From the NCBI GenBank assembly GCA_013003535.1, contig JABDIY010000120.1, positions 1 through 54,793 of the forward strand: DNA of 54,793 nucleotides. Reading direction: 5' to 3'. The notes beneath the pieces are model-generated. The model was not told the origin of the DNA. It saw only the letters and a list, made by a program, of their open reading frames with translations, and searched no databases. Below are positions 419-18,852 of the stretch, piece by piece. Both the position numbers and the translations under genes were made by a program. The DNA comes from Acidimicrobiales bacterium (GTDB lineage: Bacteria > Actinomycetota > Acidimicrobiia > Acidimicrobiales > SZUA-35). How positions within the stretch are numbered: the stretch's first letter is position 1; the number at the start of each line of letters is the position of its first letter.

Positions 419-2164
419 CTACCAGCTGCCTCCTCCGCCGCCTCCCCCACCACCACCAACGCCACCACCGCCGCCGCCTGATGACGACGACGGTGCGGTT
501 GATGCGGATTGGGTGGATCTCGAGACGGACGGACCAATTGTGGCGTGATAGAAGTGATGACGCGGAACCGACTCAAAGCGGGGGTCGGTCTCCAAGACCT
601 TTGCGATCGCCTTCCACTTCTCATCCAGTCCGAAGGCGTAGGCCCACGCGGTGTAGCCGGCGAATCGATCCGGTTCGATCATGTTGAGAGCGCTCTCCGG
701 TTCTAGCTCGCTCAGGAACCGACGCAGCGCCTCTACCTCTATCCACTTGGACGTGCCTAGCGGCGTTCGAATCCGCAGCTCCGATGACCTGGTGAGGACG
801 GTCAAGGCCGTGCCCAGGACCAGAGATGCCATGACCATGGGCAGAAGCCAGATAGGCGACCAGCGGATGCTGATTCCGCTGAACACCGCCACCGCCCCGG
901 TTGCCAGGACGCCGAACAGGATACTGAGGGCGATCGCGGCTGCGAATTGCGTATCCCCGGTCCTGTCCCAGTACCCGCTGCGTTGTCTCCAGGATTGAAG
1001 ATCGTCCTTCAGAGCATCCCATGAACGCTTGAATGCTGGGTCGTAGCCGCTCAATCTCACGGTGTCTGAATTGGCGAAAATAGAGTCGATGATTGGTTTT
1101 GTAGTTGCCCGCGCCCTACTTCCGCGACGGAGAACGGTGGTATCGCCAGGGTCCCCATCGATTCTGATCTCATCCAGCTCGGCTGCTTCCATCAACCAGG
1201 CAACCAGGTGTTGTTGAGAGACGCGCTCGTCGATGATGATGCCTCCGTGGGGAGCAGACACTCCCTGCGGCGGCGTAAGGGACGGGTAGATCAGACGGGC
1301 CATCTCCGCCTCCTCAGCCAGCCTGTGACTGTCTACCGATCCGAGGTCATCGATGAACCCGAGGGATCGTGCCGTGGTGTCCATGATTTGTTCCCTACCT
1401 CGTAAGCGAACAATTCGACCAACGAGCGGGTTGGTGATGAGCACACCGGCAAAAGCCAGCGCCATTGGAACCACAACTGAGAGGCCGCCGGTGAGCGGCT
1501 CGGGTTGTGGCGGTTTCGGCAAACTTGGAAGTTGGGTGAGGCTGGCACCGATCCCGGCGCTGACCGTAACTCCTACTCCGGACGCCAGGCGGCCAGTTTC
1601 CACAAGCAGGTGACCGGGCGAGACCTGCTCGGCAGTGCATCCGCCAATGCTCCCAAACCGCCCTGTGTCACATCTTGGATTCAACCACTCATTGGTGGAG
1701 ATCAGATGGATCTCACTAGATGAGATTGGTACCTCCCATTCGGTGCCCACTGCATTCCAGGAGAATTGGTCGCCGGCTACCAGGGTGTTCAATATGTATT
1801 CCAACTGATACCGGTGGCGGCCGCGGATGGTGATATCGGGATCACCGATTCGAATGGTAGGTGTGAATCCACTTTGGATGAGAACGTCGTCAGGAGCAGT
1901 TGCCGACGTGACGGTCAGAGGGCTGATCGGATCAAGACCTGGCACGGTGCGAAGGATTCCGCGTCGGGCGGAGAGCCCGAAGTCGTAGTCGATGACCTCG
2001 ACGATGCTTGCCGGTTCGTTGGACTGGGAGACCTGAACCGAAGTCCAATAGCTGTCGATCCGCTCGCCCGACAACCAGCGCGCTCCCGCCCACGCCGCCA
2101 GCGGAGCGATCAGCGCCATCAGGATGAATGCTATTTTTCCCGACCAGCCATGACGATCGAACAT
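419..2164 (-). CDS. DUF2207 domain membrane protein with glycine-rich tail
   Basis: Predicted membrane protein of about 581 residues. It has an N-terminal hydrophobic segment (about 10-28), a long extracytoplasmic beta-rich region matching DUF2207 in layout, a membrane segment near 230-250, a cytoplasmic stretch, two more membrane segments near 405-460, and a C-terminus of Ser then Gly runs ending in GGSW. That Gly-rich tail ending in Ser-Trp is typical of DUF2207/YciQ-type proteins, whose function is unknown. ATG 2164 is preferred to the adjacent ATG 2167 because TAGGAT ends 6 bases before 2164. The tail is coded by near-perfect GGN repeats. Confidence 0.8.
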   Translation of the reverse strand: MFDRHGWSGKIAFILMALIAPLAAWAGARWLSGERIDSYWTSVQVSQSNEPASIVEVIDYDFGLSARRGILRTVPGLDPISPLTVTSATAPDDVLIQSGFTPTIRIGDPDITIRGRHRYQLEYILNTLVAGDQFSWNAVGTEWEVPISSSEIHLISTNEWLNPRCDTGRFGSIGGCTAEQVSPGHLLVETGRLASGVGVTVSAGIGASLTQLPSLPKPPQPEPLTGGLSVVVPMALAFAGVLITNPLVGRIVRLRGREQIMDTTARSLGFIDDLGSVDSHRLAEEAEMARLIYPSLTPPQGVSAPHGGIIIDERVSQQHLVAWLMEAAELDEIRIDGDPGDTTVLRRGSRARATTKPIIDSIFANSDTVRLSGYDPAFKRSWDALKDDLQSWRQRSGYWDRTGDTQFAAAIALSILFGVLATGAVAVFSGISIRWSPIWLLPMVMASLVLGTALTVLTRSSELRIRTPLGTSKWIEVEALRRFLSELEPESALNMIEPDRFAGYTAWAYAFGLDEKWKAIAKVLETDPRFESVPRHHFYHATIGPSVSRSTQSASTAPSSSSGGGGGGVGGGGGGGGGGSW

Positions 2165-2170
2165 CATCCG

Positions 2171-2176
2171 ATCCTA
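2171..2176 (-). promoter_or_regulatory. -10 hexamer TAGGAT of the DUF2207 gene
   Basis: TAGGAT on the minus strand, 6 bases before the ATG at 2164; it decides between the two tandem ATG codons. Confidence 0.45.
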
Positions 2177-2185
2177 GGGCGATGG

Positions 2186-2321
2186 GGGCGTGCCGCGATT
2201 GTGGGCTGCCACCGGTGAGGGCGGCAGCGGAGGTTCGCGTAGGTCGGTTCTGGCATGGGAGGTTGGCGCTGGCGCGATTGTGGTCTGCCAGAAGGGCGTG
2301 CCGCGATTGTGGGCTGCCACC
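2186..2321. repeat. Cluster of inverted and direct half-units (BIME-like), subtype A
   Basis: Two identical 28-bp copies lie at 2186-2213 and 2294-2321, both containing CGCGATTGTGGGCTGCCACC. Between them are related half-units in both orientations. 2206-2213 pairs with 2220-2227 (one mismatch), and TTCTGGCA (2248-2255) pairs exactly with TGCCAGAA (2286-2293) around a further ATTGTGG unit. The order is forward, reverse, reverse, forward, forward, so the DNA can form two hairpins. It fills the space between two divergent genes. Resemblance to REP/BIME elements is inferred from structure only. Confidence 0.7.
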
Positions 2322-2360
2322 CTGAGGGTGCGTCGAGTCTTCGAAGTTCGACTGAACCAC

Positions 2361-2366
2361 TAATCT
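2361..2366 (+). promoter_or_regulatory. -10 hexamer TAATCT of the HMG-CoA lyase gene
   Basis: TAATCT followed by 6 bases and the GTG at 2373. Confidence 0.5.
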
Positions 2367-2372
2367 GATTGG

Positions 2373-3242
2373 GTGCCGAATCTGTCAATCCGTGAGGTGG
2401 GTCCGCGGGATGGACTGCAGAACGAGGAACCGGTGAACGTTGAGCTCCGGGCCGAGTTGATCAGCGCTTTGTGTCGCACCGGCCTCGCCGACATCGAGGC
2501 CGTCAGCTTTGTGTCGCCAGAAGCGGTGCCGGCGATGGCTCATGCCGCTTCGGTCCTCGAACTGGTAGACCGCCGATCCGAGGTGCGACTTTGGGCGCTC
2601 GTGCCCAATGCCCGAGGCGCGAAAATGGCGGTCGCGGCGAACGTTGACAGTCTTACGGTGACCGTGTCGGCGTGCCCGGTCTACAACCAGAAGAATGTCC
2701 GCCGTTCCATCCCTGAATCGGTTGATGCAATCGGTCAGATCGTTCAAATTGCCGACGGCCGATTGGTGGACGCAGTGATTTCCTGTGTTTTTGGCTCTCC
2801 GTACACTGGCGATGAGAACACCGCCACCGTTCCGGACCTCATGGGACAACTCGCTGACCAGGGAGTTCATCGGTTCACACTGGCCGACACCACGGGAATG
2901 GCCACACCGCACCGAATCGAAAGAGTCCTTCACAAGACCGGGATTGACGTTGGGCTGCATCTGCACGACACGCGGGGCACTGCGCTGGTGAATGCCTACA
3001 CCGCTATTGCTCTGGGCGTCACCCGCTTCGACACCGCAGTGGGGGGACTCGGCGGTTCCCCGTTTGCTGAGGGGGCGGGTGGAAACCTTGCAACCGAAGA
3101 TCTCGTGCATCTCGCCAACGATGATCCCAATCTCGAAACCGGAGTGGATCTCGATGTGTTGCTCCAGTGCGCCACCGCATTTCGAGCGGCGGTTGATCAT
3201 CCGCTGCCGGGCCGAATCGCCACACACGGGCCCGCTCGCTAG
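2373..3242 (+). CDS. Hydroxymethylglutaryl-CoA lyase family protein
   Basis: TIM-barrel of the HMG-CoA lyase family (289 residues, normal length), which cleaves HMG-CoA to acetyl-CoA and acetoacetate in leucine breakdown. The N-terminal VGPRDGLQNE carries the metal and substrate Arg-Asp pair, and LHLHDTRG supplies the metal-binding histidines. In the C-terminal loop the family signature has a cysteine (GGCP.A.GA.GN); here it reads GGSPFAEGAGGN, with Ser229 in its place. All other signature residues are kept. It may be a slow lyase or act on another acyl-CoA. The start is a GTG 6 bases after TAATCT. An acetoacetyl-CoA synthetase at 10138 could use the acetoacetate. Confidence 0.85.
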   Translation: MPNLSIREVGPRDGLQNEEPVNVELRAELISALCRTGLADIEAVSFVSPEAVPAMAHAASVLELVDRRSEVRLWALVPNARGAKMAVAANVDSLTVTVSACPVYNQKNVRRSIPESVDAIGQIVQIADGRLVDAVISCVFGSPYTGDENTATVPDLMGQLADQGVHRFTLADTTGMATPHRIERVLHKTGIDVGLHLHDTRGTALVNAYTAIALGVTRFDTAVGGLGGSPFAEGAGGNLATEDLVHLANDDPNLETGVDLDVLLQCATAFRAAVDHPLPGRIATHGPAR

Positions 3243-5395: not shown

Positions 5396-5484
5396 CGGGC
5401 ACGCGCGAAGGCGGGTGAAGCGCCCAGCAGTGAGCAGTTCCAGCTCGGTGATCGCAGGATCTGTTGCCGGGCCGGGTTGGCGAG

Positions 5485-5512
5485 CCTCCGTGGCGGCGAA
5501 CGGCCCCGGAGG
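5485..5512. terminator. Possible hairpin between convergent genes
   Basis: CCTCCG (5485-5490) pairs with CGGAGG (5507-5512) around a 16-base GC-rich loop, in the 173-base gap between the convergent alpha-galactosidase and permease genes. There is no T-run, so terminator function is tentative. Confidence 0.3.
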
Positions 5513-5568
5513 GACCGTATTCCCGTAGCCAACTCACGTTGCGCCGCAGGCTGTTTGCAGTCCAGGCC

Positions 5569-12096: not shown

Positions 12097-12106
12097 ACCT
12101 TCGCTG

Positions 12107-12182
12107 AAATTCCTGTTGATAGCTACACTAATTGTGGTTGTCAACAGGGATTTCACCTGATTGTGGTCACCAACAGGAATTT
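12107..12182 (+). repeat. Left terminal inverted repeat (76 bp)
   Basis: It begins AAATTCCTGTTGA and has the near-complementary TCAACAGGGATTT inside (12141-12153), then a 5-base spacer CACCT and another forward half-unit GATTGTGGTCACCAACAGG. It starts 10 bases after the acetoacetyl-CoA synthetase stop codon. Confidence 0.65.
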
Positions 12183-12443
12183 GAGCGGGTTTACATCCTA
12201 GGAAGGCAGATCGAGGGTGATCGACGCCGACAGCGAGCCAGCGGACTAGCCGGCAACCGATGCTTCGCCGATGTTGCTCCGCTGGATGTCCTCAACTGCC
12301 TAGTAGCTCGTCAGGGAAACGTTGGGCCTTTGCCTCGCCTTGACGCAGCTGTTCAGGCTGCGATTGAGTCGAATGCCGTCGCCGAAGAGTTGAGTCCTGC
12401 ACTCGAGGAGTGCGAGTACCCCGACGGCTCCTGAGCGCCATCC

Positions 12444-12519
12444 AAATACCTGTGTAGGACCACATTCGGGTCAAATCCCTGTCAGTAGCAACGACAATTG
12501 TGGCTGAGAACAGGAATTT
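12444..12519 (-). repeat. Right terminal inverted repeat (76 bp)
   Basis: It has the same length and half-unit order as the reverse complement of the left copy, and ends in ACAGGAATTT. It ends 39 bases before the homoserine kinase start, so the kinase promoter lies just outside the element. Confidence 0.65.
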
Positions 12520-12543
12520 GGGGAGGGCGCAAGATTGGAACTC

Positions 12544-18769: not shown

Positions 18770-18852
18770 GGAACGTGGCAGCGCAGAAGTGCGCCAGCGC
18801 GAAGCTCAGCTGCCAGAACGGGTGAGCGCGAACCTCAGCTGCCGGAACGTGA
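18770..18852. repeat. Cluster of half-units (BIME-like), subtype C
   Basis: Two forward units are directly adjacent: 18797-18825 and 18826-18852, sharing GCGCGAA-CTCAGCTGCC-GAACG with two substitutions. A weaker reverse unit precedes them (about 18770-18794). The scaffold GCGCGA...CTGCCAGAA is also present in the cluster at 2186-2321, with a different interior. It fills the gap between two minus-strand genes, 15 bases beyond the acyl-CoA dehydrogenase stop. Confidence 0.6.

Follow-up and report, generated by a model that had tools for sequence, protein, structure and literature searches.

The closest described counterparts of the locus considered here are REP and BIME elements and the insertion sequences (ISs) that break them. 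In the sections of PMC3733652 cited here, REPs are mostly sorted into GTAG and CGTC superfamilies; they are short, imperfect, extragenic palindromes that occur in clusters and mosaic composites, and larger palindromes with REP dimers nested inside them are known there as well. RAYT genes, according to the part of PMC6006769 drawn upon, are flanked by their REPs. For the insertion sequences, Tobes and Pareja (PMC1525189) described a type-1 association, with REPs interrupted by all copies of an IS at a single point, and the portion of their account used here gives target duplications in such cases of 3 bp for ISPsy8, 2 bp for ISPpu9 and ISPpu10, 6 bp for ISRm22, and none for ISPa11, with ISPsy8 and ISRm22 inserting at the symmetry axis. 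The duplication range for most ISs is put at 1 to 14 bp in the excerpt cited of PMC11708052. A study that searched for REPs names Acidimicrobium ferrooxidans in one of its tables (PMC12306157, table excerpt), and the open-access literature searched names neither the present palindrome family nor an IS-REP association in Acidimicrobiales.

The window, a stretch of 54,793 nucleotides from an Acidimicrobiales bacterium (contig JABDIY010000120.1), belongs to a genome (G000; C-numbers denote its contigs) that carries a family of palindromes with fixed geometry, extragenic at the loci examined, patchily distributed among relatives, and joined at some loci to an IS with duplication of the 16 bp at the palindrome centre. 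In the window, a cluster of the family occupies 136 of the 205 bp separating the starts of two genes. Its features, with the two kinds of arm called L and R, are as follows.

419-2167, minus strand: DUF2207 membrane protein gene flanking the cluster, its start 18 bp away
2186-2213, plus strand: first 28-mer, with a spare R arm inside at 2194-2211
2222-2319, no strand assigned: nested four-arm composite of 98 bp, arms starting at 0, 29, 51, and 80
2222-2239, plus strand: outer L arm, from the arm scan
2251-2290, no strand assigned: inner 40-bp imperfect palindrome, L arm 2251-2268 and R arm 2273-2290
2263-2278, no strand assigned: middle 16 bp of the palindrome, TTGGCGCTGGCGCGAT, which on the opposite strand reads as a 16-bp target duplication common to C16 and C159
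2294-2321, plus strand: second 28-mer, with the outer R arm inside at 2302-2319
2373-3242, plus strand: HMG-CoA lyase-like gene flanking the cluster, its start 51 bp away
18776-18844, no strand assigned: a further locus of the family within the window, L-R-R arms at 18776, 18798, and 18827

A sequence-only reading of this DNA had seen two identical 28-bp copies here, with inverted partners in the order forward-reverse-reverse-forward-forward. Both points are borne out: 2186-2213 and 2294-2321 carry the 28-mer GGGCGTGCCGCGATTGTGGGCTGCCACC without change, a related copy (75% match) lies at 2265-2292, and the arms located by a scan are R 2194, L 2222, L 2251, R 2273, and R 2302. The outer arms, L and R, start 29 bp farther out than the inner arms they accompany; the first R arm is a spare. 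The inverted partners are imperfect, and a repeat search at default settings returned no inverted pairs. The 18-mer core, at ≤3 mismatches, is found three times in the window, versus a mean of 0.10 in shuffles (none of 100 shuffles reaching three), and a model of the palindrome (R1) matches the inner one at 2249-2292 with an E value of 6e-11. The same reading took the identity to suggest a recent duplication or selection on this DNA. A recent duplication is plausible: the identical 28-mers lie 108 bp apart, both are followed by TGAGGG (with a one-base difference in length), and another locus of the family is present with four and with three tandem copies. That locus, in C90 and C173 (L045:1-300 and L046:2000-2299), was assembled in two versions, of 4 and 3 tandem 60-bp units with flanks otherwise near-identical, which suggests a change of copy number within the sampled population.

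Further copies are found throughout the genome. At ≤2 mismatches the core matches 14 places, versus 1 for a reversed control; judging from the flanks, 13 of these are arms of the palindrome family, and the one in C130 is a lone match in a coding frame. The other arm, at ≤3 mismatches, matches 60 places, but since the control matches 23, the weaker of them include chance matches. Model R1 gave at least 49 matches at E≤1 among the best 150 of 4145 first-look candidates, and these represent the two strands of at least 26 sites, 23 of them complete and 3 interrupted by an IS. About 18 loci were counted in G000: two each in the window, C90, C64, C46, and C159; one each in C161, C192, C80, C190, C146, and C18; and two split by the IS between contigs (C17/C36 and C19/C150). 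One of the C90 loci is the one assembled also in C173, and C16 carries the opposite half of the second C159 locus.

The window holds other repeats besides. Positions 5453-5552 carry a multi-copy repeat of the form GTTGGC...GCCAAC, which 17 other rows in the genome match, and a third repeat family (CAACAGGAATTT-type), at 12102-12190 and 12440-12530, has about 11 further places. On the minus strand, 23105-23268 matches the actinobacterial sRNA Ms_IGR-5 of Rfam with 59.7 bits.

The geometry of the palindromes is fixed. Of the rows in the G000 stretches analyzed that begin and end exactly as TGGCAG...CTGCCA and contain 5 or more inner pairs, 12 of 12 measure 40 bp (lengths 34-47 scanned); among rows whose ends are mismatched, many are background and differ in length. 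Neighboring arms of the same direction are 29 bp apart in 19 of 19 instances (11 L-L and 8 R-R), a count that omits tandem arrays and treats arms outside clusters as background; one outer arm, that of C17, fell under the score line of the scan. The step from inner L to inner R in composites is 22 bp. The four-arm layout of the window recurs at C159:16.1k (L060) and C64:5.0k (L049), while the tandem arrays in C80, C90, and C173 have a period of 60 or 61 bp. The 60-bp array was also considered as a CRISPR array and rejected as such, its spacers being near copies of one another, not unique.

Seven contigs, plus C18, end inside a palindrome by running into one of two shared sequences, taken as the two ends of an IS. 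Searches with these two ends, which would miss copies whose ends have diverged, found four right ends (C36, C146, C150, and C159) and four left ends (C16, C17, C18, and C19). All eight abut a palindrome after base 28 of 40, and the outer arm is present in the flanks of all eight. When each left end is paired with each right end, 3 of the 16 combinations have a 16-bp sequence in common without mismatch, and for the remaining 13 the overlap is 0 or 1 bp; the ends in C18 and C146 are without partner. Each of these three perfect target duplications coincides with the middle 16 bp of a whole 40-bp palindrome, and the three sites, when rejoined, are complete palindromes within four-arm composites like that of the window. 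The window's own center, 2263-2278, is the 16-mer duplicated in C16 and C159, read on the opposite strand, and the window copy would appear to be an unoccupied target.

The right ends in C159 and C150 are identical at 124 of 124 positions, and that in C146 departs from them at 5 of 124. The three target sites, by contrast, are unlike one another at 12, 13, and 17 of 48 positions, even in the better orientation. Near-identical ends within divergent palindromes suggest that the IS spread recently into palindromes that were already old. One might suppose instead that the palindromes are the ends or deletion remnants (MITEs) of the IS, as a palindrome is present at every observed junction. The IS termini, however, which resemble each other at 16 of 23 bases, are by eye unlike the arms; they are near identical among copies, yet the palindromes differ; and the centers of the palindromes are duplicated as targets, 16-bp duplications being strong evidence against a MITE origin. 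We regard that origin as very improbable.

The body of the IS is unassembled in the contigs, and its sole readable coding part is a 47-aa stub, which matches nothing in Pfam and whose likeness to an IS481-like frame is about as weak as that to IS66 accessory proteins. The first of these likenesses is an alignment of 26 aa (53.8%, E 0.1) with a stretch of plasmid DNA that falls within a 431-aa frame of M. alvei, whose best NCBIfam match is NF033577 IS481, at 203.8 bits (cut-off 224). Possibly, then, the IS is IS481-like, an assignment resting on a 47-aa stub whose matches fall short of significance. Five plasmid records matched the stub protein at E≤1, none strongly, and no match was found in phages. 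As for the DNA of the IS end, matches of 24-36 bases occur in 4 other genomes of a 396-genome sample of the phylum, with none among plasmids, and a 22-base piece of it has no match in viral contigs.

The relationship to genes was judged for 21 elements (C18 left out) with a basic gene caller that scores codons and had 19 frames of the window as its training set. Fourteen overlap no called gene, and 5 overlap the end of one by 2 to 17 bases; in 4 of those 5 the borders of the element had been padded past the arms, and in the fifth, the second C159 locus, the stop codon falls within the first arm. The remaining 2 lie within called frames: that of C173 has 95 aa and sits at a contig end, the same locus being intergenic in C90, and that of C190 is a 562-aa call spanning the element, where the frames make it appear that an aminotransferase-like protein starts downstream of the element. 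The loci examined look extragenic; of the two outcomes that would have refuted the sequence-only reading, neither an absence of further genomic copies nor an equal frequency inside coding sequence was encountered.

The palindromes might instead act as RNA, as terminators or as mRNA-stabilizing hairpins under selection for base pairing. Several of the loci either lie between genes that converge or follow closely on a stop codon (C80, C161, C192, C46:92.5k, and C90:718); the palindromes of a related genome, G022, are bounded by AAAC and GTTT(T), ends that would suit a terminator also; and the minus strand of the window cluster, folded over 2170-2372, does better than shuffles (z -2.72; 1 of 200 as good). 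The plus strand, however, is ordinary over the same span, its fold being no better than that of shuffled sequence (z -0.94; 40 of 200 as good). The two hairpins proposed earlier can be drawn (2194-2239 and 2251-2290). The window cluster and C159:16.1k lie between divergent gene starts, as does C190 on the above reading of its frames. A terminator-like site was not found at window positions 2000-2500, a statement about the window locus only, and Rfam gave no match to the cluster at gathering scores.

Covariation provides no evidence for an RNA stem either. Over 18 aligned palindromes, base pairs fill 74.5% of cells versus 77.0% in shuffles (495 of 500 shuffles as high). Pairing likewise fails to exceed shuffles in each genome: 256 of 378 pairs versus 276.2 for 21 distinct palindromes of G000 (1000 of 1000 shuffles as high or higher), 206 of 288 versus 222.8 in G022 (1000 of 1000 as high), and 121 of 133 versus 120.2 in G615, a genome of another family (441 of 1000 as high). 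A function at the level of RNA is in our estimation quite unlikely.

Values below those of shuffles are what one would obtain from unlike arms taken in arbitrary, mixed orientation. The two arms of one palindrome are in fact less alike than arms re-paired among loci: in G000 (14 loci, one palindrome each), 174 of 252 positions are identical versus 189.9 after re-pairing (0.12% of 5000 as low), and with the three rejoined IS sites added, 209 of 306 versus 229.2 (0 of 5000 as low). G022 gives 129 of 180 versus 138.8 (10 loci; 3.4% of re-pairings as low), and G615 shows no polarity (121 of 133 versus 120.0). These statistics leave the kinship between loci in place. The comparison suggests that the palindrome is a polarized DNA site with two unlike arms and not an RNA stem; of the main claims this is the least secure, because the copies are related and because polarity is lacking in G615.

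The distribution of the family among relatives is patchy. Model R1 matches 2 of 39 genomes of the taxonomic family, G000 itself and G022, which belongs to another genus, and it matches none of 4 genus-mates. A gap-tolerant pattern (10-38) matched G022 at 13 sites, which do not differ in length, and G006 at 1, with control patterns finding 9 sites over five other genomes. The G022 stretches contain 16 palindromes of 40 bp: of 20 rows at ≤1 mismatch, 15 are exact-ended and 40 bp long, a sixteenth with one mismatch (C26 of G022) was kept, and four others with one mismatch (37, 40, 41, and 47 bp) were taken as background. Six neighboring pairs there are 61 bp (5) or 62 bp (1) apart. The palindromes of G022 and G000 have their ends in common (TGGCAGC), and their centers are unlike.

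Four of 397 genomes sampled from the order match under stricter filters, G000 included. Two matches look like chance and were set aside: that of G482 falls in a 421-aa frame, and that of G664 is the G482 sequence on the opposite strand. In G615, CTGGCACCAG palindromes number 7 in the 284,615 bases of the 20 stretches covered (in stretches L190, L197, L202, L205, and L206). All 7 are 45 bp long, from CTGGCA to TGCCAG (43 bp if the outermost C and G are not counted), and none has any other length from 36 to 51. A degenerate pattern of the full palindrome had no exact match in genome_contigs or viral_contigs, from which records near the window's own genome were possibly excluded, while CTGGCAGCT-N24-AGCTGCCAG matched 14 stretches, 8 of them G022 contigs and the other 6 with one site each. 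Upstream of the lyase gene no empty site was found in G009, G011, and G012, where the gene order is not kept.

It is against this distribution that canonical REP/BIME elements mobilized by the RAYT (Y1 HUH) transposase of this genome should be weighed. The genome has one match to Y1_Tnp, a 277-aa frame (C209:1353-2186) with 27.5 bits to PF01797 (cut-off 23) and 55.6 bits to NF047646 REP_Tyr_transpos, under the cut-off of 80 for that model, and the polarity of the palindromes may be likened to the bulges of REPs. Yet within 6 kb around that gene (1.35 kb upstream and 3.8 kb downstream) there is no arm at ≤3 mismatches, only three strays at 4-5. Nor does the Y1 gene track the palindromes across the family: the genus-mates G011 and G012 have the gene and no palindromes, and G022 (81% complete) has palindromes and no Y1 match. 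By eye, the 8-nt flanks of the palindromes contain no GTAG, so the tag is absent from their ends, and CGTC solely at C90:720. RAYT-driven mobilization does not fit this distribution, and we consider it unlikely.

The palindromes share with REPs their short, multi-copy, extragenic character, and with BIMEs, as portrayed in the cited sections of PMC3733652, clustering in mosaic composites of defined orientation and spacing. "BIME-like", the term of the sequence-only reading, is thus a fair description of the cluster, a multi-copy set of inverted palindromic modules at fixed spacing, but membership in the RAYT-linked, GTAG/CGTC-tagged class is not supported. The palindromes differ from REPs of that class in having neither tag, in occupying at least 26 model sites in the assembly, and in nesting their arms at 0, 29, 51, and 80 bp. 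No RAYT gene flanked by the same repeats was found, the sole Y1 gene here, unlike the RAYTs treated in the cited part of PMC6006769, not being flanked by palindromes in the 6 kb covered. The IS falls in with the type-1 cases in the cited portion of PMC1525189 in that each detected copy breaks the palindrome at one position (8 of 8 ends), at the symmetry axis like ISPsy8 and ISRm22; it differs from those cases in its 16-bp duplication. The nested, fixed geometry and the IS lodged in the palindromes go beyond what the earlier reading could see.

Probably, then, these lineage-restricted extragenic palindromes are polarized, two-arm DNA recognition sites that multiply as non-autonomous units and are the target of an IS. 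According to this model, the palindrome would work at the level of DNA, its two arms presumably read by some enzyme. The units would multiply non-autonomously, giving rise to nested composites and to tandem arrays of 60-61 bp, and their patchy occurrence would reflect movement rather than repeated loss. An insertion sequence, possibly IS481-like, would use the palindromes as its target. A more far-reaching version, which we put forward tentatively and hold to be somewhat doubtful, is that polarized palindromes apart from the RAYT-linked REPs exist within a single actinobacterial order in three genera or more, with a fixed length peculiar to each, that they are moved by an undescribed enzyme, and that an IS, cutting with a 16-bp stagger centered on the dyad, can land solely on their nested four-arm form.

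The finding adds a REP-like family that stands outside the tagged, RAYT-linked class. Its most interesting part is the association with the insertion sequence, whose target is an exact palindrome and whose target duplication is long. From such a system one might learn how symmetric DNA is recognized by a transposase specific for its target, and what leads that enzyme to extragenic positions.
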